From: Bryobacteraceae bacterium
GTDB lineage: Bacteria; Acidobacteriota; Terriglobia; Bryobacterales; Bryobacteraceae
NCBI GenBank assembly: GCA_025927575.1
Contig: JAICLJ010000034.1
Location: 1-34,648 of the forward strand
DNA length: 34,648 bases
Direction: 5' to 3'
The translations under genes were made by a program, and so were the position numbers. The notes under the pieces are model-generated. The model was not told where the DNA came from. It saw nothing but the letters and a program-made list of their open reading frames with translations, and ran no database searches. Below are positions 1 to 18,102 of the stretch, one piece after another (position 1 is the first letter of the stretch; every line of letters starts with the position of its first letter).

Positions 1-3000
1 CGAGGTCCCAATCTGCACCGTTTGCGGAGCCGGATTGGCTGCCTGGTAGTTTGCCGAAAACGCTAAAGACGTGCTCGATGACGTAAGTGAAGCACCGGAT
101 ACCGCCTGCGCGGACGTGACCACAATGTTGTCATACGTAATCGGCTGACTGGAAACATCAAGTGCGATCATTCCGCTTGCGTAGGTGGCATCAGTTGCCT
201 TGATAATGGAGGCGCCGTCATAGGACACCTGTATCTGACTGCCTAGGAATGACAACCGGAAAGTATGGAAGCTCTGGTTGTCCAAAGCCACTGAAGCCTG
301 GCCGAGTTGTGCGTAACCGGCGTCGATGTTCCATTGCCCGACACGGAACAAACGAACGATCTTTTCAGCCGGATAGAGCCAAACTGCGTAGGACGCGCCG
401 GAGACCGGATTCACTCGCCCTCGGAACCCGGCAGGATAATCGGAAAGCGTTGAAAGTTTGATGCCCATTTGCACGTCGTAATCCGTCCACGCAGACGATC
501 CGGCAAAGAGCTGAGTGTGACCGCCGCCGTTGTAATTGAGTGCTTGGTTGACAACCGACCAGTTTGCGGCGTGCCCGAGCGACGAAACCGCCCAGCCTTC
601 GATACTGCCGTCGTCGAAATTGGACAATAACAGTGCGCTATTTACCGTTAGTGTCACGGGGATCACCTGAACCGAACCGTCTCCGGAGGGCGGCGTAATG
701 GTGATCGTCCCGCTGTAAGTGCCGCTGAGCCCCGAAGTGTCAACCGAAACGGACCCCGACGCAGGTGTTGTGCCGGATGTTGCCGAGAGCTTCAGCCATG
801 AGGCGGAAGAGGTCGCTGTCCACGGAATCACTTGCGAACCTTGGTTAGAAATGTTAATCGTTTGCGGCTCTGGACTGCTCTGTCCTTCGCCTTGCATCGC
901 AACGAATGAGAGACTGATCGGCGCGGCGAGAAGTGAGGACGTTCCTCCCGGCATGGATTCGCCTGGAATGAAGACGACATCAACCCAATAGTTCGTCGAA
1001 TTGAACGTATTCGCCGGGAAAGACGTTCCTGAGCCATATGCATACACGCCGTTCGGTGTGTTAGGAGCATGCACGGGCGGATTCTCCACTCCCGATGCAG
1101 TGAAATAACCCGTATCGGCGGAGTAGTGACCTTCAGGCGCCAGATACGACGCAACGTAGGTTGTACCCGCGGACACAGGCACGGGAGTGCTAAAGTTGGC
1201 CTGCTGCCAACCGGAGTTGCTCTCGCCGGTAAACGTCACGGTTCCTAAAAGTTGGCCGGAACTGGACCACAGATGGCCGATATGTGTACCAATATTTCCC
1301 GCGCCCTTGTAGAACCGGATTCCTGTGATAAAGCCGTCATAGTCGGTTTGAAAGCTGACGCCCACCTCAACTGAATTCCCGTCGTCGCTGGCGGTTTCCA
1401 CCGGTGTAACCGAGGGGCTCCAAAGGGTACATGGGCAATCGCGAGCAGCAACTGTATAGGAGATACCCGAGGTCTTGTGCTCCAGGTTTCCACTATCGTC
1501 GACAGCTCGGCTCAAAACGGAGACAGTGCCAATCGTCGCTGGTTTCCAACCGAAGCTCCACTGATTGCGGCCCGTCGTGGGATGCCATGTTTGCCCTCCA
1601 TCCACTGAAACTTCGACCGCTCCCACTACTCCGCCTCCGGAATCGCTCGCCGTTCCCGTTATGGTGACCAGCGAACCGCTCGTCACGATAGCTCCAGGAG
1701 CGGGCGAAACCACGATGGAAGTCGGTGGAGCTGTATCGGTGGATTGCGTCGCGGGCGACAAGCCGGCCTGAATCGAGGCGGGTTGCACGCCCATATCCGC
1801 GAATAAATTGACCGTGGCTTGTTGCATTCTGACGTCTGGAGCAGGCGCCGGCGAGAACTGCGCATCATGATTTTCATCGAGTCCCCAAGACCACTGGACC
1901 GTTCCAGCTCCGAAAACCAGTGCTCCGCTCGCTGCCCGGTACAGGCTCAGGTGGTGCGTGGCGGCGCCTGCGCCATATATCGCTCCGTAATCGAGCAAAA
2001 GATCGGTCGTAAGTGTGTACGTGGAGGTTGACAGGGGGATGAGTCCGGCCGGCCGGTAGCCGTTGTCGATGTCGGCATCCCATTCGTATCCCAGCGTGCC
2101 GGCCGCGAGAGTCGCCGTCTGATCAGGCGCTAAATTTGCGATTGATGTATTGCGCCAGAAACGCATCTTCCCATCGGCGGCGGGCACTTTGATCGAAAGC
2201 CCCACGTTGTCCTCGCCAGGGCCATTGACCATAAATAGCGTTCCGGTCAGCGCGTTCTCAGGCCGCCCGCCGTCGGCCGGTGGACTCAAGCGCGGATCGC
2301 GCCAGGTACCCGTCCAGGTGGGCGGGTCTGCCGGGTCAAGCTTCGTCCCGGTATAAGTCTCCTTATAACAGGCCATTGTCCGGTAAGCATTGCCTGAACC
2401 ATCGATCGAATTCTCCCATCGTGTTTTCCAGAAGTATTCGTTCCCGGTAAAGAACGCCATATTCACGCCGGCTTCGCGAGCGCTCTCGACGTTGGCCCGC
2501 TGCGGACCGGAGACATATTCATCGTGGCCGGACACAAGATATACCTTGTGGTTCTTGATCAGCGACCCACTCCTCGCGGCATCGATGCCGGTGAAGTATG
2601 TAACGTCGTATCCATTTGCCTCGAGCCAACGCACCATTGGATACTCCGCATTGAAGACCCAGCTCGCGGCTTCGAACTGCCTCGTGTCGAAAGGCCGGTT
2701 GTAACTCACTTTGTAAGCACGATCGTTAAGATCCCACGTCCCGTCGCCACCGTATAAACTGTGTCCGCCGTAGTCGTTATACGCTTGCCAGGTCTCGTCC
2801 GTGGTCTGGTAGAGAATGGCCGAATGGCTGCTGTCGTTGCGGACAATAAAGAAAATATGACTGTCGCCGCCGGTGTCGTTCCGAACTAAGTGAGCGAAAT
2901 AGATGCCCGAGACCGCGTTTGAAGGCACCGCCCAGGACGCCGATATCGCCCAATTCCCGCAATCGTACAGATTGGTTGAAGCGTCCGTGAGACACGCCGG

Positions 3001-3396
3001 CTGGGTTTGCGGCAGAGTGGCGGACGGGTCCACCGTAGCCACCTTTCTGGCGCCCATTCCGCCGTAATAACCCATCCGATAAATGTCTAAGTGGTAGGCG
3101 CTGGCAGGCGTTTTAACTTTGAAATCGATGGTCTGGCCCACATTAACGCTGATATCCGTCGCGAATCCCTGAATGGTGTCGTCCCCAACTCCGGAGATCG
3201 CCCACTCGTCGGGAGAATTACCGGGCAGACAATTTTCCGCGACAATTGCGTTTGCAGGAGAAGAGCATTGCGCATAAGCTGTCTGGCTTCCAAAACTCGC
3301 AAGGAGTAGCGCGGCGGCAATTCCGCCCACTCGCGCCAGGTCGTTCGCTCTACTGGGCCTGCGAGTCAGCCTCCCGAAGAACATCCGGAAGCTCAT
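1..3396 (-). CDS. Secreted multidomain protein: N,N-dimethylformamidase beta-like, Ig-like, DUF4082, BACON domains (C-terminus off the left edge)
   Basis: One minus-strand frame stays open from ATG 3396 to the window edge, about 1132 codons. Residues 1-42 form a signal peptide: Arg-rich start, hydrophobic run at about 24-36, cleavage likely after AYA. The mature start AENCLPGN and the later DIYRMGYYGG, YLVSGHDEY and FFTGNEYFWKTRWE belong to the large-subunit-like domain of N,N-dimethylformamidase (about 50-530). An Ig-like repeat follows (about 553-650, with VDGGQTWHP and SRAVDDSGN), then a DUF4082 domain opening CTLWSPSVTP (about 653-812), a BACON-like domain (about 818-917), a LamG-like sandwich (about 920-1085) and the start of another BACON domain. 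In Acidobacteriota such proteins are exported, and their real substrate is unknown; amidase activity should not be assumed. A sigma-54-like promoter at 3480-3495 points to co-regulation with the EPS genes. Start chosen for the signal peptide and AGGG just upstream. Confidence 0.85.
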   Translation of the reverse strand, partial: MSFRMFFGRLTRRPSRANDLARVGGIAAALLLASFGSQTAYAQCSSPANAIVAENCLPGNSPDEWAISGVGDDTIQGFATDISVNVGQTIDFKVKTPASAYHLDIYRMGYYGGMGARKVATVDPSATLPQTQPACLTDASTNLYDCGNWAISASWAVPSNAVSGIYFAHLVRNDTGGDSHIFFIVRNDSSHSAILYQTTDETWQAYNDYGGHSLYGGDGTWDLNDRAYKVSYNRPFDTRQFEAASWVFNAEYPMVRWLEANGYDVTYFTGIDAARSGSLIKNHKVYLVSGHDEYVSGPQRANVESAREAGVNMAFFTGNEYFWKTRWENSIDGSGNAYRTMACYKETYTGTKLDPADPPTWTGTWRDPRLSPPADGGRPENALTGTLFMVNGPGEDNVGLSIKVPAADGKMRFWRNTSIANLAPDQTATLAAGTLGYEWDADIDNGYRPAGLIPLSTSTYTLTTDLLLDYGAIYGAGAATHHLSLYRAASGALVFGAGTVQWSWGLDENHDAQFSPAPAPDVRMQQATVNLFADMGVQPASIQAGLSPATQSTDTAPPTSIVVSPAPGAIVTSGSLVTITGTASDSGGGVVGAVEVSVDGGQTWHPTTGRNQWSFGWKPATIGTVSVLSRAVDDSGNLEHKTSGISYTVAARDCPCTLWSPSVTPVETASDDGNSVEVGVSFQTDYDGFITGIRFYKGAGNIGTHIGHLWSSSGQLLGTVTFTGESNSGWQQANFSTPVPVSAGTTYVASYLAPEGHYSADTGYFTASGVENPPVHAPNTPNGVYAYGSGTSFPANTFNSTNYWVDVVFIPGESMPGGTSSLLAAPISLSFVAMQGEGQSSPEPQTINISNQGSQVIPWTATSSASWLKLSATSGTTPASGSVSVDTSGLSGTYSGTITITPPSGDGSVQVIPVTLTVNSALLLSNFDDGSIEGWAVSSLGHAANWSVVNQALNYNGGGHTQLFAGSSAWTDYDVQMGIKLSTLSDYPAGFRGRVNPVSGASYAVWLYPAEKIVRLFRVGQWNIDAGYAQLGQASVALDNQSFHTFRLSFLGSQIQVSYDGASIIKATDATYASGMIALDVSSQPITYDNIVVTSAQAVSGASLTSSSTSLAFSANYQAANPAPQTVQIGTS

Positions 3397-3479
3397 TCGA
3401 GCCCTGCATGGCAGCGAGAGGGAATGGAGGGAGATAGACAGTATGGAATCAGGCAAAGGTAGCCACCGCGCCTTTCAAA

Positions 3480-3495
3480 AGCATTTAAGAGGCCA
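3480..3495 (-). promoter_or_regulatory. Predicted sigma-54 (-24/-12) promoter for the secreted multidomain protein
   Basis: On the minus strand the element reads TGGCCTCTTAAATGCT: GG and GC dinucleotides separated by exactly ten bases, with T before each and A/T after. This fits the sigma-54 core TGGCAC-N5-TTGCW at the essential positions. The start of transcription would be near 3469, giving a leader of about 73 bases before ATG 3396. One of seven such elements in the EPS region. Confidence 0.45.
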
Positions 3496-3833
3496 CGACT
3501 CTGCTTTCTTTCAAATGCCTTGCGGAAGTTAATCGCCGGTGGTAACGACGGCCTCAATCTAACAAAGAATCAATGGCTTACCTCGGCAATCGCTGAGCTC
3601 TGTATCGAGAATCTTGTGGTATCGGAGGAGTCCAGTTAAGCGCGCAATGAGATATCCTCCGCCGCTTGGCGTCGCGATGTCCAAAACATTTTCCTTTATT
3701 CTCCGGCTTTTGCCGCATACTCATTTAAAATTTGAAGTCTCTCGCTTCGATCCCACGCGTTACGGATTCGCCGCGTGTCACCCTATGTTCATTTCCAAAG
3801 CCTAAACGGCTGCTTTTCGACCGGATTCCGATT

Positions 3834-3849
3834 TGGCCGACCAAGTGCA
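3834..3849 (+). promoter_or_regulatory. Predicted sigma-54 (-24/-12) promoter of the six-gene EPS sugar operon
   Basis: The element reads TGGCCGACCAAGTGCA, with TGG and TGC nine bases apart. Transcription would start near 3860, 28 bases before the TTG start at 3888 and upstream of its GGGAGG ribosome site. This supports the short start for the acetyltransferase. A minus-strand copy (3846-3861) shares the TGCA core head to head. Confidence 0.45.
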
Positions 3850-3887
3850 TCCACCTGTCCAACGACAACGTGCCGGGAGGATTTAAA

Positions 3888-4412
3888 TTGATTTCTGCGG
3901 ATGTTCAATTAGGAGAAAGAGCGGTTGTTTTTCATCCGGATTTGGTTAATCTTTACGGCTGCCGCATCGGTGGCGGTACGCGGATCGGCTCATTTGTAGA
4001 AATTCAAAAAGACGTTGAAGTCGGATCGAATTGCAAAATTTCGAGCCATTCGTTTCTATGCAGCGGAGTGACAGTCGAAGACTCGGTGTTCATTGGACAT
4101 GGCGTCATGTTCATCAACGACATGTATCCCAGCGCGGTGAATCCGGATGGAGGTTTGCAAACGGCGGATGACTGGGAGTGTCTGACGACGACCGTCCGTC
4201 ATAACGCTTCTATCGGAAGCAACGCAACAATTTTGGGCGGCGTTACGATCGGGCGGCATTCGCTCGTGGGCGCCGGAGCAGTGGTGAATCGGGACGTGCC
4301 GGATTATGCCATCGTGGCCGGTGTGCCCGCGCAAGTCATCGGAGATGTGCGCGAAAAGAAGCTGAGTGTCGCGCAAGAGACCGGCGCAGTGGTGGCTGCC
4401 CGGCTGCGGTAG
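3888..4412 (+). CDS. wbpD: WbpD/WlbB-like UDP-2-acetamido-3-amino-glucuronate N-acetyltransferase
   Basis: Likely transfers acetyl from acetyl-CoA to the 3-amino group of UDP-GlcNAc3NA, the last step to UDP-2,3-diacetamido-2,3-dideoxyglucuronate, in the cytosol. The 174-residue protein is a left-handed beta helix with hexapeptide repeats (IGGGTRIGSFVEIQKDVEVG, GVTIGRHSLVGAGAVVNRDV) and the family opening ISADVQLGERAVVFHPDLVNLYG. I chose the TTG at 3888 because GGGAGG lies seven bases upstream and because family members begin at this point; the frame remains open back to 3732 without recognisable sequence. It is first of six closely packed genes. The next gene encodes the dehydrogenase and the third the aminotransferase of the same pathway. 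Substrate is inferred from context; another aminosugar acetylation is possible. Confidence 0.8.
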   Translation: MISADVQLGERAVVFHPDLVNLYGCRIGGGTRIGSFVEIQKDVEVGSNCKISSHSFLCSGVTVEDSVFIGHGVMFINDMYPSAVNPDGGLQTADDWECLTTTVRHNASIGSNATILGGVTIGRHSLVGAGAVVNRDVPDYAIVAGVPAQVIGDVREKKLSVAQETGAVVAARLR

Positions 4413-4457
4413 GGAATTGTCAATGTCTATAGCTTCAATTGCAATCGGAGGTGTGAA

Positions 4458-5498
4458 TTGATTCGAATTGGCGTCGTTGGATACGGATACTGGGGGCCGA
4501 ATCTCGTTCGGAATTTTTTCGAATGCCCGGATACCGAGGTGGCGGCGGTGGCCGATATGCGGCAGGAGCGTCTGGATCTGGTTGCCCGGCGTTATCCAGG
4601 GCTGCGCCTTACTACGGCCTACAAGGATCTCCTGAACGATCCGGCCATCGACGCAGTGGCGATCTCGACGCCAGTTACGACACATTTCCCGCTAGCGATG
4701 GAAGCATTGCGTGCGGGCAAGCACGTGCTGGTAGAGAAGCCGATGGCCGCGAGCATCGAGGAAGCCGAGCGGCTAATCGACGAAGCCGAGCGGCGGAAAC
4801 TTGTGCTGATGGTGGACCACACGTTTGTGTACACCGGAGCAGTCCGCAAGATTCGCGAACTGATCGATAAAGGATCGCTCGGAAGCCTCTATTATTACGA
4901 CTCGACGCGCGTGAACCTGGGTCTGTTCCAACACGATGTGGATGTGGTCTGGGATTTGGCAGTTCACGACCTTTCAATTATGGATTTCCTGCTTCCCCAA
5001 ACGCCTGCGGCCGTTTCGGCGACCGGACTCAGCCATGTCCGGGGAGCGGCTGAAAATATTGCGTATGTCACGGCGTTTTACGATAGCCCGCTCATCGCAC
5101 ACCTCAGCGTGAACTGGCTGTCTCCCGTCAAAGTTCGCCGCACTCTCATCGGCGGCAGTAAACAAATGGTGGTTTACGACGACACCGAGAGCAGCGAAAA
5201 AGTGAAGTTGTACGACAAGGGCATCACTGTGAAAAACGGGCCCGAGTCCCTGTATAAATTGTTGGTTGGTTACCGCTCGGGCGACATGTATTGTCCGCAA
5301 CTCGATGTGACCGAAGCATTACGGCTCGAGGCTCAGCACTTCGCCGAATGCATTACGACGGGAAAGATGCCGCTGACAGACGGGTACTCCGGCCTGCGGG
5401 TTGTGAGCATCCTCGAGGCCGCCAGCCGCTCTATGAAGGAGCGGGGCCGCGAGGTTCGTCTTAAAACATACGCTGGAACTCGCCCGGTGTGTGCGTGA
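4458..5498 (+). CDS. wbpB: Gfo/Idh/MocA oxidoreductase, WbpB/WlbA-like
   Basis: Probably oxidises C3 of UDP-GlcNAc-uronate to the 3-keto sugar using NAD(H), feeding the aminotransferase next door. The protein is 346 residues. It opens with a Rossmann dinucleotide site ([11 protein letters not shown]), has the EKPMA motif of Gfo/Idh/MocA enzymes at about residues 94-98, and a C-terminal alpha/beta domain with [13 protein letters not shown], where the His-containing helix supplies a catalytic residue in this family. The start is TTG 4458, preceded by GGAGG at good spacing; it aligns with the Rossmann strand, so no earlier start is needed. It lies 45 bases after wbpD and 14 bases before the aminotransferase. 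Substrate rests on gene order; other nucleotide-sugar oxidoreductases share the fold. Confidence 0.8.
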
Positions 5499-5512
5499 GC
5501 AAGGGAGATTTT

Positions 5513-6625
5513 ATGACTGTTCCGTTTGTCGATCTAAAACAGCAATACCTCAGCATCAAGGACGAAGTTCTTGCGGCAGTTGCCGGCGTGTTCGAATCCA
5601 CGCAGTTCGTGCTCGGCAAAGAAGTCGCTGCCTTTGAAGAAGAGTTCGCATCGTACAGCGATGCCCGTTATGGCGTCGCCGTGAATAGCGGGACCAGCGC
5701 ATTGCATCTGGCGCTGCTTGCGGCCGGCGTCGGACCGGGCGATGAAGTGATAACGGTCCCGTTTACATTTGTGGCGACGGCAGCGGCTGTTTGGTATACC
5801 GGCGCAAAACCCGTGTTCGTGGATGTCGACCCCGAGAGCTATTGCATGGATTCAGCCCGGATCGAAGAAGCCATTACGCCCCGTACAAAGGCAATCCTTC
5901 CCGTCCATTTATACGGCCAAGCGGCCGACATGGATGCTATCTCGGCAATTGCCCGGCGTCACGGACTGCCGGTGATCGAGGATGCCGCGCAGGCTCATGG
6001 CGCGGAATATCGTGGACGCCGCTGCGGCTCGATCGGCGAGATGGGCTGTTTCAGCTTCTATCCCGGCAAGAACCTCGGCGCTTATGGAGAGGGTGGCATG
6101 GTGACGACCAACAACCCTGAACTTGCCCGCCAAATCCGAATTCTCCGCGACTGGGGAGCCGAGAAGAAGTACCATCACGTTCTTAAGGGTTTCAATTACC
6201 GCATGGAGGGCGTGCAAGGCGCCATTCTGCGAGTAAAGCTTCGCTACCTCGAACAGTGGACGGAGGCCCGCCGCGCGAATGCCACGCTTTATTCCCGCGC
6301 GCTGGCCGATTCCAATCTGCACTTACCGAAAGAAGCGCCGGGCAACCGCCACGTGTATCACGTTTATGGCGTCATGACTCCGCGGAGACGCGAGTTGATG
6401 GATGCGCTGGAGGCGCAGGGCGTACAGACCGGGATCCACTATCCGGTTCCCGTCCATCTCCTTCCCGCTTACAGCGACCTTAACTATCAGGCAGGTGATT
6501 TCCCCATCGCGGAGCGGCTTGCATCCGAGGAACTTTCGCTTCCGATGTTCCCGGAATTAGCAGAATCACAGATTGACGCCGTCGTCAGCGCGATTGAAGA
6601 GTACAGCAGTGTCTATCAATCGTAA
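5513..6625 (+). CDS. wbpE: DegT/DnrJ/EryC1 aminotransferase, WbpE/WlbC-like
   Basis: A PLP-dependent sugar aminotransferase, likely converting the 3-keto UDP-GlcNAc-uronate to the 3-amino sugar with glutamate as donor. The protein is 370 residues, normal for the family, and begins [10 protein letters not shown]. The phosphate-binding [11 protein letters not shown], the EDAAQAHGA segment holding the PLP-ring Asp, and the Schiff-base lysine in [17 protein letters not shown] are all present. The start at 5513 follows AAGGGAG by five bases; the same frame also opens at 5489, inside the end of the preceding gene, but that has no ribosome site. WbpB and WbpE recycle cofactor together in the known pathway, which fits their adjacency here. 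The last 17 bases overlap the next gene. Confidence 0.82.
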
Positions 6626-7319
6626 CGGCGCGTGCCATAGTCTGACGGCCGTACACGGCCGGCGAGAGATTTTGCCCGATCCGTCCTTTGAAGTCGGGTT
6701 ATCCGGGCATCTCAGCTCCGCCTATAGTTCTGAAGCGCTGATCGAGCAGTATCACCGTTTCTCGAACGGCGAAGGAGAACTGGACGCGCTGATGCGCCGC
6801 GCGATCTGGAGATCTGTCGCGCGAAAGTTCGGCAACGGCGTGCGTGTCGGCGCCGCGGTGGGCTTCAAACACCTTGAGACCTTTGAGATCGGCGATGGTG
6901 TGTTCATTGGCGCACAGGCCTACATCCAGGGTAGATTCGACGGAACCACGCGCATTGGGAACCGGGTGTGGATCGGTCCCCAAGCCTATTTTGACGCCCG
7001 CCATTTGATCCTCGAAGACCACGTCGGCTGGGGTCCGGGCGCGAAGGTGCTTGGGTCGGTTCATACCGGATTACCGATTGAAGCGCCAATCATTGAGACC
7101 GATTTGGAAGTACGTCCGGTGAAGGTGGAGGAATGGGCCGACATTGGCACGGGCGCTATTCTGCTGCCGGGCGTAACCGTAGGGAAGGGCAGCATTGTCG
7201 GAGCGGGGGCAGTTGTGACCCGCGATGTGCCTGCGTTTGCGATTGTGGCCGGCGTGCCCGCAAAATTCGTCCGCTGGCGAGATGGATACGAAGGGAACAA
7301 AGAGGAACATGAATTTTAA
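6609..7319 (+). CDS. Hexapeptide-repeat acyltransferase of the EPS operon
   Basis: A left-handed beta-helix acyltransferase of about 236 residues. Hexapeptide turns run through the second half ([44 protein letters not shown]) and finish with the classic [24 protein letters not shown]. About 80 N-terminal residues have no recognised fold; they include a short helical stretch ([12 protein letters not shown]). Start is uncertain: I favour GTG 6609, with GAAGA eight bases upstream and a 17-base overlap with the aminotransferase. A TTG at 6573 is the alternative. Its likely job is O- or N-acylation of a sugar nucleotide or of a lipid-linked repeat unit made by this operon. The acceptor cannot be read from sequence. 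Confidence 0.75.
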
Positions 7320-8286
7320 ACGCGCGTTGATCACCGGCGGAGCCGGTCTGGTAGGGTCGCACATTGCCGATTTACTTGTCAGAGATGGCCTTGACGAGAT
7401 CGTTATTGTGGATAATTTCACTCGCGGCCGCCGGGACAATCTGGCGAATGCATTGGCGAGCGGAACAATCACGATCGTTGAAGGCGATGTCCGCGATCGT
7501 AAACTGATGGCCGAGGCGATGCGAGGCATCGATGTTGTGTTTCATCAGGCGGCCATACGAATCACTCAATGCGCCGAGGATCCGCGTCTTGCTCTCGATG
7601 TGTTATCTACCGGGACCTTCAATGTCTTGGAAGCGGCGGTCGCCGCTCGTGTCAAGAAGGTAGTCGCCGCGTCCTCGGCATCCGTCTACGGACTCGCCGA
7701 GGAATTTCCCACGCCGGAGACGCACCATGGTTACGATAACCGCACCATCTACGGAGCCGCCAAACTCTTCAACGAAGGTTTGCTCCGCAGTTTTCACGAT
7801 ATGTACGGCCTCAATTACGTAGCGCTCCGGTACTTCAATGTCTATGGACCCAGAATGGATATTCACGGCGTCTATACGGAAGTTCTGATTCGCTGGATGG
7901 AGCGGCTTGCAAAAGGCGAACCGTGTTTGATTCTAGGAGACGGAACGCAGACCATGGACTTCGTGTTCATCGAAGACATCGCTCGGGCGAATGTGTTGGC
8001 GGCAAAAGCGAACGTCACTGACGAAGTTTTCAATGTGGCAAGCGGCACGGAAACCAGCCTGAACGAACTCGCTGCTGCGCTGGGCCGGGTTATGGGTTGT
8101 TGCCGGCAGCCGCAGTATGGGCCGGCGCGCAAGGTGAATCCCGTCTCGCGCAGGCTCGCCGATACCGCCAAGGCGGAGCGCTTACTCGGATTCAAGGCGC
8201 GTGTATCGCTGGAGGAAGGACTCAGCCGGCTGGTGGCATGGTGGAGCCTCGCAGGGTCGCTACAACCTACTGCCATTACTGCCTGA
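7309..8286 (+). CDS. NAD-dependent epimerase (extended SDR), nucleotide sugar 4-epimerase-like
   Basis: An extended short-chain dehydrogenase of 325 residues acting on a nucleotide sugar. The NAD-binding TGGAGLVGSH is at residues 9-18. The Ser of SSASVYG and the YGAAK pair (Tyr and Lys of YxxxK) form the catalytic set, followed by RYFNVYGPRMD and a substrate loop ending FVFIEDIARA. The ASVYG form rather than TDEVYG suggests an epimerase more than a 4,6-dehydratase, but the substrate is not determined. ATG 7309 overlaps the end of the acyltransferase by 11 bases and has AGAGGA just upstream, indicating coupled translation. With the aminotransferase after it, it could make a second amino sugar of the polymer. 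Confidence 0.8.
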   Translation: MNFKRALITGGAGLVGSHIADLLVRDGLDEIVIVDNFTRGRRDNLANALASGTITIVEGDVRDRKLMAEAMRGIDVVFHQAAIRITQCAEDPRLALDVLSTGTFNVLEAAVAARVKKVVAASSASVYGLAEEFPTPETHHGYDNRTIYGAAKLFNEGLLRSFHDMYGLNYVALRYFNVYGPRMDIHGVYTEVLIRWMERLAKGEPCLILGDGTQTMDFVFIEDIARANVLAAKANVTDEVFNVASGTETSLNELAAALGRVMGCCRQPQYGPARKVNPVSRRLADTAKAERLLGFKARVSLEEGLSRLVAWWSLAGSLQPTAITA

Positions 8287-8305
8287 ATGCTTGTGGAAAC
8301 CTGTC

Positions 8306-9475
8306 ATGATTCCGATTATTAAACCTTCTCTCGACGAGCGTGAAGCGGAGGCGGCCAGCCGCGTCATTCTGTCCGGCTGGATTACGCAGGGGCCTGAGGT
8401 GGCCTCGTTCGAAAGAGAATTTGCCGAAATGGTTGCGGCTCCGCACGCCTGTGCCGTTTCGAATTGCACGACTGCGCTTCACCTTGCGCTGCTCGCGGCC
8501 GGTGTGCATGCCGGCGACGAAGTTGTAACGGTCAGCCACTCGTATATAGCGACGGCGAATAGCATTCGCTATTGCGGGGCCGTTCCGGTCTTTGTCGATA
8601 TCGAACCAGCGACTTTCAACATCGATCCGCATCTTGCCGAAGCGGCGATCACCGACAAAACGCGAGCGATTCTCTGCGTACATCAGGTGGGTATGCCATG
8701 CGATTTGGCGAGCCTGGTTCCGATCGCGGAACGGCATGGGTTGCACCTGATTGAAGATGCGGCCTGCGCCGCGGGCAGCGAAATTCTGTGGAACGGCCAA
8801 TGGGAGCGAATCGGCAAGCCCCACGGGGACGCGGCTTGCTTCTCATTCCATCCCCGGAAATTAGTTTCAACCGGGGATGGCGGCATGATCACAACCAGGC
8901 ACAAGGACTGGGATAAGCAATTCCGGTTGTGGCGCCAGCATGCCATGTCGGTGCCCGACACGGTGCGGCACTCATCGAATGAAGTCATCTTCGAGACTTA
9001 TCCGGAGCTTGGATTTAACTACCGCATGACCGACATCCAGGCGGCGGTAGGTCGTGAACAATTGAAGAAGCTGCCGGGCATTGTCGCCCGGCGTCGTGAA
9101 CTGGCCAGCCGCTATTCCAGCCTGCTTGCGGATGTGCCCGGACTCATCACTCCAGTGGAACCCGAGTGGGCGCGCAGCAATTGGCAAAGTTACTGCGTCC
9201 GCCTTCCGAAGAGCTGCGATCAGAAGCAAACGATGCAGACTCTGCTCGATCGCGGCATCTCGACGAGGCGAGGAATTATGTGCGCTCACCGCGAGCCAGC
9301 CTACCGGCAGCAGCCCTGGCGCTCGCTGGGGAGTCTTCGGGTGAGCGAGCAGGCGCAGGAAACGGCCACCATTCTGCCGCTCTACAACGAGCTGTCGCTT
9401 GCAGATCAGGAGTATATAGCTGAACAGCTTCGCGCTGCTGTGCTTGCACAGACTCCCTGCGAAGTCTCCGCTTGA
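8306..9475 (+). CDS. DegT/DnrJ/EryC1 aminotransferase, perosamine-synthase-like
   Basis: A second PLP sugar aminotransferase, 389 residues. It begins IPIIKPSLDEREAEA, has [16 protein letters not shown] for the phosphate site, EDAACAAGS with the cofactor Asp, and Schiff-base lysine in FSFHPRKLVSTGDGGM. That last form is typical of 4-aminotransferases related to GDP-perosamine synthase, rather than the WbpE form earlier in the operon, so the two enzymes probably act on different sugars. ATG 8306 lies 19 bases after the epimerase stop, with GTGGAAA upstream. The frame extends back to 8201 inside the epimerase without support. This is the last gene of the operon; a hairpin lies 27 bases after its stop. 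Confidence 0.8.
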   Translation: MIPIIKPSLDEREAEAASRVILSGWITQGPEVASFEREFAEMVAAPHACAVSNCTTALHLALLAAGVHAGDEVVTVSHSYIATANSIRYCGAVPVFVDIEPATFNIDPHLAEAAITDKTRAILCVHQVGMPCDLASLVPIAERHGLHLIEDAACAAGSEILWNGQWERIGKPHGDAACFSFHPRKLVSTGDGGMITTRHKDWDKQFRLWRQHAMSVPDTVRHSSNEVIFETYPELGFNYRMTDIQAAVGREQLKKLPGIVARRRELASRYSSLLADVPGLITPVEPEWARSNWQSYCVRLPKSCDQKQTMQTLLDRGISTRRGIMCAHREPAYRQQPWRSLGSLRVSEQAQETATILPLYNELSLADQEYIAEQLRAAVLAQTPCEVSA

Positions 9476-9527: not shown

Positions 9528-9800
9528 TTATGTCTGGAACTTTAGAATCGCCGCGCTTGCGGCACGGATCCGGATCTCATACCGGCCGCTCTTGTTCCCA
9601 AGGGGTTCCAGGCGTTCGGGCTTCCATTCGCCTTCGGCAGTGACAGCGGCGCCGGCCAGCGTGATTCCGTCTTTGGCTTGGAGAGAAGGCCCAATGAGGC
9701 GTAATACTGCCGCGCGCGCGAAGCGTTCGGTGATGGCGATGTGCACGTCGGCATCTTGGGATATCTCTTTGTTGACGATTGAAGCGAGAGCCGCTTCCAA
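9528..9800 (-). pseudogene. Out-of-frame C-terminal beta domain of the GH79 gene
   Basis: This frame encodes the missing end of the glycosidase: EAALASIVNKEISQDADVHI, then LRLIGPSLQAKDGITLAGAA and WKPERLEPLG, the usual GH79 C-terminal sandwich. It has no ribosome site and no plausible start, so it is not a gene of its own. It and the upstream ORF together span 9528-10981, with the break at 9797-9798. A single-base deletion, real or from sequencing, explains it. Confidence 0.75.
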
Positions 9801-10981
9801 TCGTGAACGACCGCATAAGCGGTGAGGTTTATATTCGCGGCATCACAATCCACGGCTAGCAACTGTCCCTGGCTGGCTTGTGCAAAAGCTAACATGCCGT
9901 AATATTCCGGTTTCGCCGAGTAAGTTCCGCGTTCATCGTCGGCGATCGGAGAATAGGAGCTGATAAACCCAAGCTGGTTCACACCGGTCTCGATGTTGAC
10001 GCCAGCGCAGCCCGCCGACGCGAGACTGAACATAAAATCGAGCACCCAAAGCGCAGCGCCGAACGTATCGCTCACGCCCGGCTTACCACCACCGCAAAAG
10101 GAATTTGTTTCACAAATCCGATATGGCGTGCGCGAAGCTTTGGAAGCGGATCTTAGTTTCTCCAGCATCGGAGCGAGTTTCGGATCAGGATGCAGCAACT
10201 TATCCATGGTGCTGCTCGGGCCTGCGCACTCCCGGTAATAGTGATGGGTCAGCAATTTCAAATCGTGTCCTTCGTCATGCGCGAACAGAGTCACCCAATC
10301 GGTTGCGCCCGCCGCGTCCGGGCCGGCGAACGGCGTATGGGGCAGCTTCGCGCGAATGGCTGACTTGTAGCGTCTGTATTCCTTCAAGTAGTCGCCGTAG
10401 CTGTAGTCCTTCGGCCTGTGCGTGGTTCCTCGGCCGAACAGGTCCGGCTCGTTCCCAATCTCAAAGGCGAGAAGCTTATCTTTGACACCGGTAGTCACTG
10501 CTTCGGATTCTTCGACCGCTTGTCGTTCGTCGCCGCTACCCAGATTCAGACCCCAGATCAACTTCCAGCCGGTTGCGTCAAGAAACGTGCCTAGTTGCCG
10601 AAGGCTGGCGGTGTTTACGACAGTTCCCTTCGGCGACGCCACAGCGTGGCCGGTTGGAGCGAATGAGGCGTAGTCGGAGGTGTTGCCGCCAACTCGGATT
10701 ACCCCGGCGGATCCCAGCGACCGAAGTAACTGCACATAGATCCGGTTGTCAGCGCTGAGCAGACCGGGTATAGATACCGAAGAAATCTCATAGCCAAGTC
10801 CAATAAAGTCGGTGGCAATTGCGCCGAGCTCTCGCCGCGTATCGACGGCAATCCGTACCGAAGCCGCGCCGCCCGCGGGGCGTGCTTCAGTGCCGAAGCT
10901 ACGTCTGGCAAGTGCTAACGTTGCGGCAGTAACCGAACCCGTAAGAAGTTTTCTACGACTCGGGTACACGTTATCTCTCAC
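9542..10981 (-). CDS. GH79 family glycosidase (beta-glucuronidase-like), Tat-exported, frameshifted near the C-terminus
   Basis: Likely removes uronic acids from glycans outside the cytoplasm. Residues 8-30 carry a twin-arginine signal (SRRKLLTGS and a hydrophobic stretch). The catalytic domain contains RVGGNTSD, the acid/base Glu in FEIGNEPD (residue 178) and the nucleophile Glu in ICETNSF (residue 291), matching GH79 enzymes such as the Acidobacterium capsulatum glucuronidase. After AVVHDW (about residue 395) the frame stops resembling the family; the expected beta-sandwich end is found in another frame (9528-9800). Adding one G in the GG at 9797-9798 would join HDW to EAALASIVNKE and restore the gene. 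The GTG at 10981 may not be the start; GTG 10969 has a better GAGAG site and leaves the Tat motif intact. No sigma-54-like element lies upstream. Confidence 0.8.
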   Translation of the reverse strand: MRDNVYPSRRKLLTGSVTAATLALARRSFGTEARPAGGAASVRIAVDTRRELGAIATDFIGLGYEISSVSIPGLLSADNRIYVQLLRSLGSAGVIRVGGNTSDYASFAPTGHAVASPKGTVVNTASLRQLGTFLDATGWKLIWGLNLGSGDERQAVEESEAVTTGVKDKLLAFEIGNEPDLFGRGTTHRPKDYSYGDYLKEYRRYKSAIRAKLPHTPFAGPDAAGATDWVTLFAHDEGHDLKLLTHHYYRECAGPSSTMDKLLHPDPKLAPMLEKLRSASKASRTPYRICETNSFCGGGKPGVSDTFGAALWVLDFMFSLASAGCAGVNIETGVNQLGFISSYSPIADDERGTYSAKPEYYGMLAFAQASQGQLLAVDCDAANINLTAYAVVHDWKRLSLQSSTKRYPKMPTCTSPSPNASRARQYYASLGLLSKPKTESRWPAPLSLPKANGSPNAWNPLGTRAAGMRSGSVPQARRF

Positions 10982-12306: not shown

Positions 12307-12560
12307 CACGGAGCTGTCATTAGGAGCGATCTATCTGGAGAAGAGTAGGCGCCGCTTCCGACGATGACGAGATTGCAAGCGTATTCTCGTGCAGGTTTGG
12401 GCATGCCCGTTCCGTGCGTGATCTTGGAATCTTCGAAACCGGAGCCTGGAGCCGTCAGCAGTTGCGTGTCCAACTGCGCCAGATTCTGAGGCGAGATACA
12501 TTCTCTCATCCGCTTATCCATGGCGAACCATTCGATCCACCTGGCGATTCCGGCTGTCAT
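12297..12560 (-). CDS. Hypothetical small protein, doubtful
   Basis: An 87-codon frame that starts at ATG 12560, inside the end of the PEP-CTERM-like gene (47-base overlap), on the same strand. Its codon use is G/C-rich at third positions, like real genes here, but it has no recognisable domain, no signal peptide and no clear ribosome site. Its end overlaps the sigma-54-like element of the next gene. It could be a small second gene or the remains of a longer upstream frame. Confidence 0.25.
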   Translation of the reverse strand: MTAGIARWIEWFAMDKRMRECISPQNLAQLDTQLLTAPGSGFEDSKITHGTGMPKPAREYACNLVIVGSGAYSSPDRSLLMTAPCGQ

Positions 12561-12948
12561 GTTCCAAAGGAGATCTTGCCTGTTTGCGCGAAGCCAATGG
12601 GAGGACAGTAAGGTCCGAAATTTCAGGCAATTTGCCCATCGATAGAGGTTTTCTACGGAGGCGGCTAACGTGCTTCATCGCGGCGGATGCGCCAATGAGA
12701 GCGGCCCCGACCAGAAAGTAGAGAAGCGGCTGGGGCCAGTTCGGACTGTAGGGTACCGTGACCGAAAAATTCATTGAAGCTGGAAGAGTTCTCGCGCCAC
12801 CCGTACTTACCGAAGATGTCGAGTGAATCGACAAAGAGGCGCTCGGCGGTTCGAGTCCTGCTGGTTTGGCGGACATCAAGGCGGTCGACGCAGCGCACAG
12901 TATTGCGGCGGTGACGATCGAAATTAGAATGGATCCCTTCGAGTTCAT
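12514..12948 (-). CDS. Exported single-pass protein with a PEP-CTERM-like segment
   Basis: A 144-residue protein with no matching family. Residues 1-27 form a signal peptide (ISIVTAAILCAASTALMSA). A Ser/Thr/Pro-rich stretch follows, then WPQP at 71-74, a hydrophobic run at 75-90 (LLYFLVGAALIGASAA) and the basic cluster RLRRK at 96-100. This order of Pro motif, transmembrane helix and Arg cluster resembles the PEP-CTERM signal handled by exosortase. It differs in having PQP for PEP and a 44-residue tail after the basic cluster. Neighbouring genes (EpsB-type transferase and XrtA-type deacetylase) belong to families linked to PEP-CTERM systems, which favours that reading. A sigma-54-like element lies 28 bases upstream of ATG 12948. 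It could instead be a plain membrane protein. Confidence 0.55.
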   Translation of the reverse strand: MNSKGSILISIVTAAILCAASTALMSAKPAGLEPPSASLSIHSTSSVSTGGARTLPASMNFSVTVPYSPNWPQPLLYFLVGAALIGASAAMKHVSRLRRKPLSMGKLPEISDLTVLPLASRKQARSPLEHDSRNRQVDRMVRHG

Positions 12949-12975: not shown

Positions 12976-12991
12976 TGCATGCTACGGGCCA
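12976..12991 (-). promoter_or_regulatory. Predicted sigma-54 promoter of the PEP-CTERM-like gene
   Basis: The minus strand reads TGGCCCGTAGCATGCA, matching TGGC.CG and TGCA of the consensus. The expected start near 12965 lies 17 bases before ATG 12948. It is back to back with the element at 13058-13073, so both divergent units would answer to the same activator. Confidence 0.5.
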
Positions 12992-13057: not shown

Positions 13058-13073
13058 TGGTATTGAAAATGCA
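13058..13073 (+). promoter_or_regulatory. Predicted sigma-54 promoter of the EpsB-type transferase gene
   Basis: The plus strand reads TGGTATTGAAAATGCA, with GG and GC ten bases apart and an A-rich spacer. The expected start is near 13084, leaving a leader of about 76 bases before ATG 13160. Confidence 0.45.
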
Positions 13074-13159: not shown

Positions 13160-14560
13160 ATGGTTCGAGTCTTTAACCAATACGTTTCCGTTAAAAGCCT
13201 GCTCTTGATTCTTCTTGAAGGCATTCTTATCGTCGGCGGATTGCTCTGTGGGGCCAAGCTGCGATTTTTAGGGAATGTTGCCGAATTTTACGACTTTGTC
13301 CAGTTGCCGAATTTCGGCGAACAGGTCTTGATCATAGTAATCGCAGTTCAAATCTGTTTTTACTATTGCGACCTTTACAGCTTTACGTATACCCGGAGCC
13401 GAAGCGGAGAGATCGTCGACATTTGTCAATCTATCGGAGTTGCGTGTCTGATTCTGGGGGTCGTTTATTTCATATTTCCTGCGCTCCTCCTGGGGCGCGG
13501 CGTCTTCTTTATGGGCGTGGGGATTTCGGGTGCCCTCGTTTTCGGCAGCAGGCTTTTGCTCGACCATGCCTGGCGTGCGGCGGCGCCGCAGCATCGCGTT
13601 CTGATTTTGGGCAGCGGTGAGGCGGCCATCACCATTGCGCGCGAGCTCACCAGGCGGGGCGACCTGAATGTCCATCTGTCCGGATTGGTTCACGAAGAAG
13701 ATGTTGAATCGGGGTCTGTCTTCGGTTACCCGATTCTGGGCGGAATGGATCGGTTGGAGGAAATCGCGGCCCGGCACGGTATTACCCGAATAGTTGTTGC
13801 GCTTGCAAATCGCCGTGGCGTCTTGCCGGTGCGTGAGTTGGTAACACTGCGCGTGCAGGGAATCATCGTCGAAGACGTTCACTCGACGATTGCGGCGCTT
13901 AGCGGTCGTGTCTGGCTATCGGTTGTTAAGCCAGGTTGGTTTGTGTTTGCAGGAGGATTTCACCGGTCGCGTCTCACGCTGATTACAAAGCGATGTTTGG
14001 ATCTTGCGTTCAGTGTGCTGGCCCTGGCCGTGGCGTCGCCGATCATGGCCTTGGTTGCGCTTGCGGTGCGGCTCGATTCGAAGGGACCAGTGCTCTATCG
14101 GCAGACAAGAGTCGGCCTCGGCGGCCGCTGTTTCGAAGTCCTGAAGTTCAGGTCGATGTCCGTGAACGCCGAGTCTGGCAACGGCGCGCAATGGGCCCAG
14201 CAAAACGATCCGCGCGTGACTCGCGTGGGCAGGAGCCTGCGCAAATACCGTTTGGATGAGTTCCCACAGTTGATCAACGTGATTCGCGGGGATATGAGCT
14301 TCGTCGGTCCTAGGCCTGAACGACCGGCCTTTGTCGAAATGCTCCGGAAAGAAATACCCTACTACGACGAGCGGCATTCCGTCCGTCCGGGAATCACGGG
14401 ATGGGCACAAGTGCGCTACGATTACGGCGCAACCGTCGAGGACGCCCTCAGGAAGCTGGAGTATGAGCTGTTCTATCTCCAGAACATGTCGGTGTTGTTC
14501 GACCTTGCGATTATGTTTGCGACTGTCCGCGTCATGTTGTCGGGCAGCGGAGCCCGATAG
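13160..14560 (+). CDS. epsB: EpsB-type undecaprenyl-phosphate sugar phosphotransferase (PEP-CTERM-associated)
   Basis: An initiating phosphoglycosyltransferase of 466 residues that would load the first sugar phosphate onto undecaprenyl phosphate in the inner membrane. The N-terminal half has about four membrane helices (near 12-30, 55-75, 93-112, 113-130) and a Rossmann-like domain (VLILGSGEAA). A further helix near 280-300 precedes the C-terminal catalytic domain, with KRCLDLAFS, PVLYRQTRVGLGG, VLKFRSM, RLDEFPQLINVIRGDMSFVG, PRPERP and RPGITGWAQVRYDY, all hallmarks of bacterial sugar transferases. The opening MVRVFNQYVS is typical of the subfamily found with exosortase/PEP-CTERM loci. It is monocistronic, convergent with the deacetylase, and sits behind a sigma-54-like promoter. 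The first sugar is not known; UDP-glucose or UDP-galactose are family precedents. Confidence 0.85.
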   Translation: MVRVFNQYVSVKSLLLILLEGILIVGGLLCGAKLRFLGNVAEFYDFVQLPNFGEQVLIIVIAVQICFYYCDLYSFTYTRSRSGEIVDICQSIGVACLILGVVYFIFPALLLGRGVFFMGVGISGALVFGSRLLLDHAWRAAAPQHRVLILGSGEAAITIARELTRRGDLNVHLSGLVHEEDVESGSVFGYPILGGMDRLEEIAARHGITRIVVALANRRGVLPVRELVTLRVQGIIVEDVHSTIAALSGRVWLSVVKPGWFVFAGGFHRSRLTLITKRCLDLAFSVLALAVASPIMALVALAVRLDSKGPVLYRQTRVGLGGRCFEVLKFRSMSVNAESGNGAQWAQQNDPRVTRVGRSLRKYRLDEFPQLINVIRGDMSFVGPRPERPAFVEMLRKEIPYYDERHSVRPGITGWAQVRYDYGATVEDALRKLEYELFYLQNMSVLFDLAIMFATVRVMLSGSGAR

Positions 14561-14784: not shown

Positions 14785-15663
14785 TCAACGGACGAGTGAT
14801 AAGTCCGGCTGTTCGACTGGATGGACGGCGGTAAGCGGCCCAAAGGCGAAATCCGAGAGCAGGCGTTCCAGCTTGCCGGCCATCGAGCGTAGACCGTAAT
14901 ATGTGCGGATCGTGGAAACCAGGCTTGAAGTCAATCTGGGCTGGTCGGGATCTAATTCCCATGGGTGAAAGTACACGCATGCCGGTTGGCTCTCGCTGTC
15001 ATTGATACGGCGGACACCGGCGGCCGTGTAGCAGTAGGGTAGAAGCCGGAGATAGCCGCCTCCCCCCACAGGAACAAGTCTGTTAGAAGAGATTCGGGCT
15101 GTCGCGATCGGCACTTCATAGATACCGCCTGACGGAGTCTCGTATCGCCGCGCATTTCTGCCAAACCCGGGAATGCCATAGCGATCATGACGGATGGGGT
15201 AGATGCTCGAGTCGTGAGTGAAGCCGAGCTCTACGAGAATTTCCAGAGCCCATAGCGATTTGGCTGTTATGGAGTAGCTGGGAGCGCGATAGATGCGTGG
15301 AGTCAGGCCGCAAGCATCTTCGATGCACCCGACCGCTCGTTTGGTATCCTCCCGAAATTCATGAGGCGTCAAGTCATAAACCAGTGAATGGGCATAACTG
15401 TGGCATCCGATTTCATGGCCCTGTTTCGCAATTTCTTGAACCAGCCGCGGGTGTTTTTCCGCAACTTTGCCGAGCATGAAAAATGTTGCCGAAACACCAT
15501 GACGCGCAAGCAACTCCAGAACCTGTTCTGTTTGCGGCTCTACCAATGAAGGCGTGTACCGCGAACCGTCATCAGAGCCGGATACTTCGGTCGCGTGGAA
15601 GCATTCCTCCACATCGACCGACAAAACGTTCAATATCTGCTGCCGGCCAAGAGGTAATTTCAT
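14785..15663 (-). CDS. XrtA/PEP-CTERM-associated polysaccharide deacetylase (DUF3473-type)
   Basis: A 292-residue NodB-fold deacetylase. The catalytic set is visible: LSVDVEE with the base and metal Asp (residues 14-20), ATFFMLGKVAEKHP, GHEIGCHSYAH with the two metal His residues, and RAPSYSITAKSLWAL. The second half (YEVPIATARI, VPVGGGGYLRLLPYCYT and YFHPWELDPDQPRL) is the extension typical of the deacetylases found beside exosortase loci. It probably removes N-acetyl groups from the polymer or from lipid-linked precursor. No signal peptide is evident. The start at ATG 15663 lacks a good ribosome site, so a few residues may be wrong. A sigma-54-like element lies about 130 bases upstream. Confidence 0.83.
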   Translation of the reverse strand: MKLPLGRQQILNVLSVDVEECFHATEVSGSDDGSRYTPSLVEPQTEQVLELLARHGVSATFFMLGKVAEKHPRLVQEIAKQGHEIGCHSYAHSLVYDLTPHEFREDTKRAVGCIEDACGLTPRIYRAPSYSITAKSLWALEILVELGFTHDSSIYPIRHDRYGIPGFGRNARRYETPSGGIYEVPIATARISSNRLVPVGGGGYLRLLPYCYTAAGVRRINDSESQPACVYFHPWELDPDQPRLTSSLVSTIRTYYGLRSMAGKLERLLSDFAFGPLTAVHPVEQPDLSLVR

Positions 15664-15995
15664 ATGCTGTTTGCGAAACGGCGGCGCTGTTTTAAGAGCA
15701 ACACCGAGAGTTGGAAAAGCGTGCCAAAAAAACTCAGCACGGCTGCGTCGGTCAATCGAGTTTGCATATTCCGCATGACGTTGGGGAAAGCACGTCGCAT
15801 GCCAGCTGCCCGTGAGAAAAGATAATGCGCAATAACGCCAGAATCGGGGGCAACGCGAGCTCCGATGCTACATTTCCAATCCCGGAAACTCGGAATCTGT
15901 CGTAAACTTCCGATTGCGCCGGATTGTTCCACATTCGTGAGCGCCCTGCTGTGAATGGAACTCCAGTGTTCCGGTATTGTCCACGGAGACAGCTC
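15664..15995. other. Intergenic region between PilZ gene and deacetylase
   Basis: 332 bases without a convincing gene. A 90-codon minus-strand frame (15660-15932) overlaps the deacetylase start by four bases, but it has no family likeness or ribosome site, and the promoter-like element at 15789-15804 falls inside it. No other signal recognised. Confidence 0.5.
15789..15804 (-). promoter_or_regulatory. Predicted sigma-54 promoter of the polysaccharide deacetylase
   Basis: The minus strand reads TGGCATGCGACGTGCT, matching TGGCA.G in the -24 half and TGCT in the -12 half. The expected start near 15778 gives a leader of about 115 bases. Confidence 0.45.
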
Positions 15996-18093: not shown

Positions 18094-18102
18094 ATCGATA
18101 CT

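Follow-up and report, generated by a model that had tools for sequence, protein, structure and literature searches.

A predicted giant secreted protein with a dimethylformamidase-type domain, linked to amino-sugar exopolysaccharide genes in a Bryobacteraceae bacterium

Introduction

Dimethylformamidase (DMFase) of Paracoccus (large subunit, PDB 6lvb) carries a mononuclear iron, which is bound by Tyr399, Tyr440, and Glu521. In the same report, the mutants Y440A, E521A, and H519A were inactive, N547 was likewise termed essential in a figure legend, and the small subunit was required for activity (PMC7686228). The fold is known mostly from solvent degradation. A second solved enzyme, N-acetyl-(R)-beta-phenylalanine acylase (8huy/8i59/8i5a), indicates by its PDB name that N-acetyl amides are likewise cleaved within this superfamily; a paper on this acylase was not found. 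In the XrtA/PEP-CTERM sigma-54 exopolysaccharide (EPS) systems (Aquincola pepA), an RpoN-dependent PEP-CTERM protein was described to have a matrix role in floc formation (PMC9850573). In our study, we examined a contig of a Bryobacteraceae bacterium (GCA_025927575.1, JAICLJ010000034.1, positions 1 to 34,648; hereafter the window) and the giant gene at its left edge, which encodes a predicted secreted protein with a DMFase-type domain (DMFA2_C). An earlier note on this DNA had proposed a matrix or glycan-processing protein under an EPS promoter rather than a solvent-degrading enzyme. No paper tying DMFase-like proteins to exopolysaccharide was found in the open-access literature. Neither the fold nor the type of enzyme is new, and the secreted, modular, EPS-linked form appears to be undescribed in that literature.

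Linkage of the giant gene to amino-sugar EPS genes

The giant gene (1–3396, minus strand) was found to be divergent from an amino-sugar cassette of six plus-strand genes at 3732–9475. The cassette contained a hexapeptide-repeat sugar acyltransferase (WbpD/QdtC-like; 3732–4412), a Gfo/Idh/MocA oxidoreductase of sugar-nucleotide type (4458–5498), which was the linked marker gene, a first DegT/DnrJ sugar aminotransferase (5489–6625), a second hexapeptide acyltransferase (6573–7319), an NAD-dependent sugar epimerase/dehydratase (7225–8286), and a second DegT/DnrJ sugar aminotransferase (8201–9475). Among solved structures, the first acyltransferase was closest to the lipopolysaccharide-biosynthesis acetyltransferase 3mqg (9e-25), which we take to be WbpD-like. 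The first aminotransferase matched scyllo-inositol transaminase best in the PDB (3e-125), followed by a transaminase, QdtB, and WbpE (all below 1e-90). The best NCBIfam family of the oxidoreductase was uridine diphosphate N-acetylglucosamine 3-dehydrogenase (185.5 against a cut-off of 450) and its PDB matches were general oxidoreductases; the name WbpB is unproven for this gene. The acyltransferases and aminotransferases of the cassette suggest that the polymer contains N-acylated amino sugars.

At least 170 stretches of the genome collection encoded a relative of the giant protein. The linkage was tested in 57 genomes taken from 80 loci. The first set of 21 consisted of 20 loci chosen partly with their neighbours known, together with a relative of the same genus (G001), and the second set consisted of 36 loci on contigs of at least 43 kb. 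The 23 loci left out were 20 on contigs shorter than 40 kb, one on the contig of another locus (L032, contig of L029), and two without a test (L033, 71 kb; L050, 44 kb). The linkage counts rest on a single oxidoreductase homologue per genome, the best one.

In 31 of the 57 genomes, against 0.51 expected, no more than 25 kb separated the matched DMFA2_C locus from the closest homologue of the oxidoreductase (41–95% identity); the second set alone gave 18/36 (0.34 expected). When any DMFA2_C gene was counted, the number was 40 of 57, at a median distance of 9.4 kb (0.93 expected). A homologue at E <= 1e-70 was found in 56/57 giant-gene genomes vs 13/61 relatives of the window genome (this genome and G001 included); the Fisher comparison used 11/59 with these two left out, and the two groups differ in taxonomy. 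A member of the EPS sugar transferase family PF02397 was encoded no more than 25 kb from the matched locus in 14/21 genomes of the first set (0.85 expected) and in 13/36 of the second (1.11 expected; P 1.7e-11 if the genomes were independent). The Wza-type exporter PF02563 was found at this distance in 9/21 (0.79 expected). The linked genomes spanned Acidobacteriota, alpha-, beta-, and gammaproteobacteria, Geobacter, and Actinomycetota. A link of the giant gene to EPS is thus highly probable, and the linkage across phyla lends strong support to the earlier proposal of a matrix or glycan-processing protein over a solvent degrader.

The gene order was mapped in 11 genomes (14 stretches), all drawn from the linked ones. 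In a Woeseiaceae genome (L109; a gammaproteobacterium), the six cassette genes adjoined the giant gene in the order of the window, with a hexapeptide acyltransferase as the fourth. In a member of Bryobacterales (L117), the six genes were in the same order and divergent from the giant gene, and the oxidoreductase was 64% identical. Methylobacter (L110) had the window order with one unassigned open reading frame (ORF) at the fourth place, and Granulicella (L115) had all six genes with the first two swapped. The cassette was partly present in Geobacter (L118), Rhizobium (L111 and L119), Actinokineospora (L121), and Nocardioides (L113); in L120 and L122 the oxidoreductase alone was recognised. In 10 of the 80 loci, two or three of the genes for the acyltransferase, the oxidoreductase, and the first aminotransferase were found within 6 kb of the giant gene. 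Genes of flippase, Wza-type export, and glycosyltransferase adjoined some cassettes. No name for this amino-sugar EPS locus was found, and the linkage gives a marker for it.

Catalytic domain and its site

The DMFA2_C domain (PF20254) was found at residues 103–510 (1867–3090, minus strand) with 340.8 bits against a cut-off of 27, covering positions 2–372 of the 374 of the profile. An AlphaFold2 model of the catalytic part had a mean predicted local distance difference test (pLDDT) of 84.3 and a predicted template modelling score of 0.89. This model matched the acylase 8huy with a Z of 29.6 and the DMFase structures 6lvb/6lvd/6lve with Z of 29.0–29.3 (415–417 residues, 2.9–3.0 Å), and the best unrelated structure reached 11.3. 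A profile of 26 relatives matched 8huy at 3e-16 and 6lvb at 4e-10 in the PDB. A plain phmmer search of the PDB with the giant protein gave sulfite oxidase chains only, over the Ig domain, and no match of the catalytic part. On its predicted structure, the giant protein is a member of the DMFase/acylase structural superfamily, with an Ig-like domain and a ThuA-like alpha/beta/alpha fold.

The site residues were compared in 82 sequences, which were the window protein, its own-genome paralogue, and the 80 loci. Tyr206 (2779–2781), aligned to the Fe ligand Tyr399 of DMFase, was a Tyr in 82/82. Tyr215 (2752–2754), likewise a Tyr in 82/82, is the putative counterpart of the Fe ligand Tyr440 by spacing, the alignment being gappy there. 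His291-Asp292-Glu293 (2518–2526) aligned to His519-Pro520-Glu521, and Asn319 (2440–2442) to Asn547, both in 82/82; all four features are on the minus strand. The agreement at Tyr206, Tyr215, Glu293, His291, and Asn319 is unlikely to be due to chance, because only 56 columns were invariant in the alignment of 26 sequences. Since the ligand and catalytic residues matched to DMFase are invariant in all 82 sequences, the catalytic domain is probably an active metallo-amide hydrolase. The earlier note, which had recognised the amidase-like domain, underplayed how intact its site looks. An assignment of Tyr399 to the Tyr of a SGIY motif was dropped, as the PDB alignment places Tyr399 on WQAYN. A second DMFA2_C protein of the same genome (G000:C72:24390–25499, L102) had a frame of 1930 amino acids (aa), was 34% identical, and contained the same site residues.

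The Ig-like and ThuA-like catalytic domains superposed on the DMFase large subunit (Z 29.0, 2.9 Å, 417 residues), and the Tyr, Tyr, and Glu ligands and the catalytic His and Asn described for that enzyme (PMC7686228) were matched in the window protein. Unlike DMFase, the window protein has a putative signal peptide, a long C-terminal array of modules, and a setting in an EPS locus, at 18% identity. The pentraxin domain of DMFase (domain II, ~260 residues, inserted in the Ig domain) is absent; the profile alignment breaks between DMFase residues 34 and 337, and the window sequence and model are continuous without this insertion. The window protein is a superfamily member with an active-looking site, yet it is no DMFase by the full definition. 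The acylase gave the best sequence-profile and fold match, and its solved chain (772 aa) had no such module array in its match.

Domain architecture

The domains were called by Pfam search against the curated cut-offs, and all modules named in the earlier note (amidase-like, Ig-like, DUF4082, LamG-like, and BACON) were scored. All the following features are on the minus strand. The translation, read by eye, starts with a Sec-type signal peptide at residues 1–42 (3271–3396; ending SQTAYA, cut before QC), by which the protein would be secreted. An N-terminal Ig-like domain at residues ~72–188 (2833–3183) was packed on the catalytic domain in the AlphaFold2 model and was identified via alignment to the DMFase/acylase and Ig domains. 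After the catalytic domain, the protein contained an Ig-like Big_7 domain at residues 558–624 (1525–1725; 33.3 bits, cut-off 24.1), DUF4082 at 663–805 (982–1410; 183.2 bits, cut-off 28.4), BACON (BACON_2) at 843–904 (685–870; 30.1 bits, cut-off 25), and a LamG-like domain at 927–1093 (118–618), for which the Pfam match was 3keto-disac_hyd (31.0 bits, cut-off 26.8).

DUF4082 was encoded on the strand of the giant gene in 78 of the 80 loci and was found by Pfam in the window protein and in 6/6 relatives scanned whole. Its model (pLDDT 87.7) was a beta-sandwich, and the nearest structure was the lectin-like domain of Cwp84 (Z 13.3, 138 residues, 3.0 Å), followed by parts of phage fibres and baseplates and by PHR domains, with fucose-binding modules lower. 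Although a fold as such shows no function, the natural reading of the model is that DUF4082 may bind the polymer, and the domain thereby gains a likely role as a lectin-like module.

An extra DMFA2_C protein adjoined the giant gene in one locus (L027:2545–4959; G066:C61:31259–32287). It was incomplete, its profile matching in two pieces (6–158 and 210–369), so that the central part has been lost or has diverged; DUF4082 was not matched in it.

Frame and C-terminus of the giant gene

The window is contig C228 from base 1, in an assembly of 319 contigs. As the earlier note had stated, the open frame exceeds 1130 residues. It contains 1132, from an ATG at 3396 to position 1, and its 3' end lies past the contig edge. 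A TTG at 3456 is a possible alternative start, and the ATG at 3396 was not conserved in G001 (L019). The protein of G001 was 84% identical in a frame of 1881 codons, and its architecture matched that of the window protein with more numerous BACON/LamG-like repeats. The full length of the window protein was estimated from this frame as ~1860 residues.

Contig C198 of the same genome contained the putative last 267 residues, a continuation based on synteny with G001; in G001, its alignment (blastn, 84.7% over 5.7 kb) begins shortly beyond the stretch to which the window aligns, with a gap between C228 and C198 of ~1.4 kb. The break between the two contigs falls within the BACON/LamG-like part of the gene, and the repeats are probably its cause.

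The earlier note had suggested looking for a sorting signal at the C-terminus. No PEP-CTERM, exosortase, or sortase signal was seen by eye in the C198 continuation or in G001; in both the LamG-like domain was last, ending AFTNV(K/Q)VIGF before the stop. On these C-termini, the giant protein was rejected as a PEP-CTERM or other sorted substrate. In Rhizobium (L119), a HlyD-type secretion gene (L119:10751–12160) was found ~4 kb downstream of the giant gene, which suggests type I secretion of the giant protein in that organism.

Candidate sigma-54 regulation

Upstream of the giant gene, a candidate sigma-54 (-24/-12) site, TGGCCTCTTAAATGCT, was found at 3480–3495 (minus strand), with a GG-N10-GC core 84 nt upstream of the ATG and a score of 17.5. 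The earlier note had predicted an EPS promoter and had given no site. The GG and GC of the core were kept in G001, where the best upstream site (score 16.5) differed from the one aligned to that of the window. The next gene on the same strand after the giant gene encoded an FHA-domain sigma-54 activator. Of 14 acidobacterial genomes, 7 (0.73 expected) had a sigma-54 activator gene in the locus as fetched, with 6 kb on either side.

When the upstream scan was anchored on the domain, sites scoring 18.5 or more were present in 8 of the 24 acidobacterial loci; the reverse strand gave 1, and shuffled sequences gave 0.89. At 17.5 or above the numbers were 11 vs 5 (reverse) and 3.2 (shuffled), and at 19 or above 2 vs 1 and 0.37. 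A first scan anchored on the start codon was weaker (5/24 at 18.5 or above, vs 2 and 0.62); the domain anchor was adopted after uneven start calls were seen in it, which somewhat favours the strength of the result, and the relatives are not independent. The candidate site of the window gains indirect support only from its relatives, and a sigma-54 promoter of the giant gene is plausible but unproven from these sequences.

Interpretation

Beyond the gene linkage itself, each step of the proposed mechanism is one that we infer. A metal centre of DMFase/N-acyl-amidase type, made up of two Tyr and one Glu together with His and Asn, would stand at the N-terminal end of a long rod of Ig, DUF4082, BACON, and LamG-like modules. 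The protein would not be anchored, and its modules would retain the enzyme in the matrix. The exported amino-sugar polymer, made with the linked acyltransferase, oxidoreductase, and aminotransferase, would bear many amides. A metal-activated water would cleave an amide, most likely that of the N-acyl (acetyl or formyl) groups of the polymer, and the free amines thus exposed would alter its charge and adhesion. The expression would probably be coupled to the EPS genes through sigma-54 activators. We favour this secreted, matrix-bound amidase, trimming the N-acyl groups of the linked amino-sugar exopolysaccharide, only tentatively; stated in full, with the substrate, it falls somewhat short of an even chance. 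The earlier note would have taken measurable formamidase activity, together with expression independent of the EPS genes, as contrary to a glycan role. Formamidase-type chemistry would not speak against such a role, given that an N-acyl amide is the likely substrate.

Several observations weigh against the amidase reading. Linkage is no evidence of what the enzyme cuts, and the protein may have an adhesive or a scavenging role. The P values exaggerate the linkage because the genomes are not independent of one another, and in 17 of the 57 genomes no DMFA2_C gene was found within 25 kb of the oxidoreductase (G061, G066, G070, G075, G077, G078, G080, G084, G091, G094, G097, G101, G109, G110, G111, G112, and G114; in G061 no oxidoreductase homologue was found at E <= 1e-70). 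For 9 of the 40 linked genomes, the DMFA2_C copy near the oxidoreductase differed from the one originally matched. The giant protein is not essential to the sugar pathway, because three relatives (G011, G014, and G060) have the oxidoreductase without a match to the protein. The equivalence of Tyr215 and Tyr440 rests on spacing. The families listed for the 444 ORFs that neighbour the gene at the 80 loci included no recurrent small protein, of the kind that DMFase needs as its small subunit, where no search with a small-subunit model was made. As for the promoter, sigma-54-grade sites in the window were not above chance (116 vs 141 expected at <=3 mismatches), sites of similar grade were also found between genes at places without an EPS link (e.g., 32227), and the site of G001 aligned to TGGCCTCTTAAATGCT was weak, with a score of 14.5.

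The protein may instead be mainly a structural or adhesive part of the matrix, with modules that bind and cross-link EPS, an amidase domain that acts as a further polymer-binding module, and a minor role for catalysis. Most of the ~1860 estimated residues are Ig, BACON, LamG-like, and DUF4082 modules, the predicted fold of DUF4082 is lectin-like, and the RpoN-dependent PEP-CTERM protein acts in the floc matrix (PMC9850573). We regard this as unlikely, though deserving of weight, since a pure scaffold has no need of metal ligands and a catalytic His and Asn that are invariant in 82/82. An exo-enzyme scavenging nutrients such as small formamides, N-acyl amino acids, or peptides, with the nearby EPS genes as an incidental clustering of surface genes, would agree with the closest solved enzymes, both of which act on small amides by name; the linkage of one specific oxidoreductase in 31/57 genomes (40/57 with any copy), the linkage to the amino-sugar cassette genes, and the lectin-like modules make it distinctly improbable. 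The same fold and site could also serve acyl transfer, and the link to amino-sugar biosynthesis would suit an enzyme that, unlike a hydrolase, acts as a transamidase or forms amides and attaches amino sugars to other components of the matrix. Both solved relatives are hydrolases by name and no acyl-donor partner was noticed, and we consider this reading very improbable.

The trimming amidase that we favour would resemble the NodB-type polysaccharide N-deacetylases (CE4), of which the window has one, in the proposed de-N-acylation of an extracellular amino-sugar polymer. Unlike these, the giant protein carries DMFA2_C, and no NodB domain was found among the 10 Pfam families listed for it at E <= 1. 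It is possible, though doubtful, that secreted, lectin-tethered iron amidases of the DMFase superfamily form an undescribed class that de-N-acylates amino-sugar EPS, is co-inherited with the cassette across phyla, and is unrelated to the known polysaccharide N-deacetylases. If true, such a class would give a natural role to the DMFase fold. If the linkage reflects function, the family name, which suggests solvent degradation, misleads, and the processing of matrix polysaccharide would be a natural home for the unusual Tyr-Tyr-Glu iron site of DMFase. Most genomes with the giant gene pair the candidate enzyme with the sugar pathway expected to make its substrate.

Other features of the window and of the relatives

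Further EPS-type genes were found downstream in the window. A bacterial sugar transferase (Bac_transf) of the EPS-initiating type was encoded at 13160–14560 (plus strand), with a sigma-54-like site, TGGTATTGAAAATGCA, upstream at 13058–13073 (plus strand). An XrtA-system polysaccharide deacetylase (TIGR03006, 297.1 bits against a cut-off of 276.2) was encoded at 14785–15663 (minus strand), with the site TGGCATGCGACGTGCT upstream at 15789–15804 (minus strand). A two-component system at 16849–19599 (plus strand) consisted of a histidine kinase (16849–18093) and a sigma-54-dependent response regulator (18103–19599), the best families of which were all below the cut-offs; it may be the EPS activator. 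This was followed by a nucleotide-sugar dehydrogenase at 19611–20942 (plus strand; TIGR03026, 428.6 bits, cut-off 189.8). The window resembles the XrtA/PEP-CTERM sigma-54 systems in the deacetylase, the sigma-54-type regulator, and the proposed matrix-protein role, and differs from them in that the giant protein has no C-terminal sorting signal (PMC9850573).

A small ORF at 12514–12948 (minus strand) looked exported, and ended with a hydrophobic stretch and an Arg/Lys tail like an exosortase substrate; it had no match in Pfam or NCBIfam, and a sigma-54-like site, TGGCCCGTAGCATGCA, was present 28 nt upstream at 12976–12991 (minus strand). The protein encoded at 9542–10981 (minus strand) matched the GH79 N-terminal family weakly (24.3 bits, cut-off 23.1) and had a twin-arginine-like start; a frameshift may explain why its final ~100 residues looked unlike the rest.

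Among the relatives, one Bradyrhizobium genome (G077, L079) contained six DMFA2_C matches. A gene family recurred near the giant gene in 9 of the 80 loci (L024, L026, L028, and L030 among them), mostly of the Granulicella/Edaphobacter type, and its scanned member (L026:4097–5344) was an FAD-dependent oxidoreductase, DAO.

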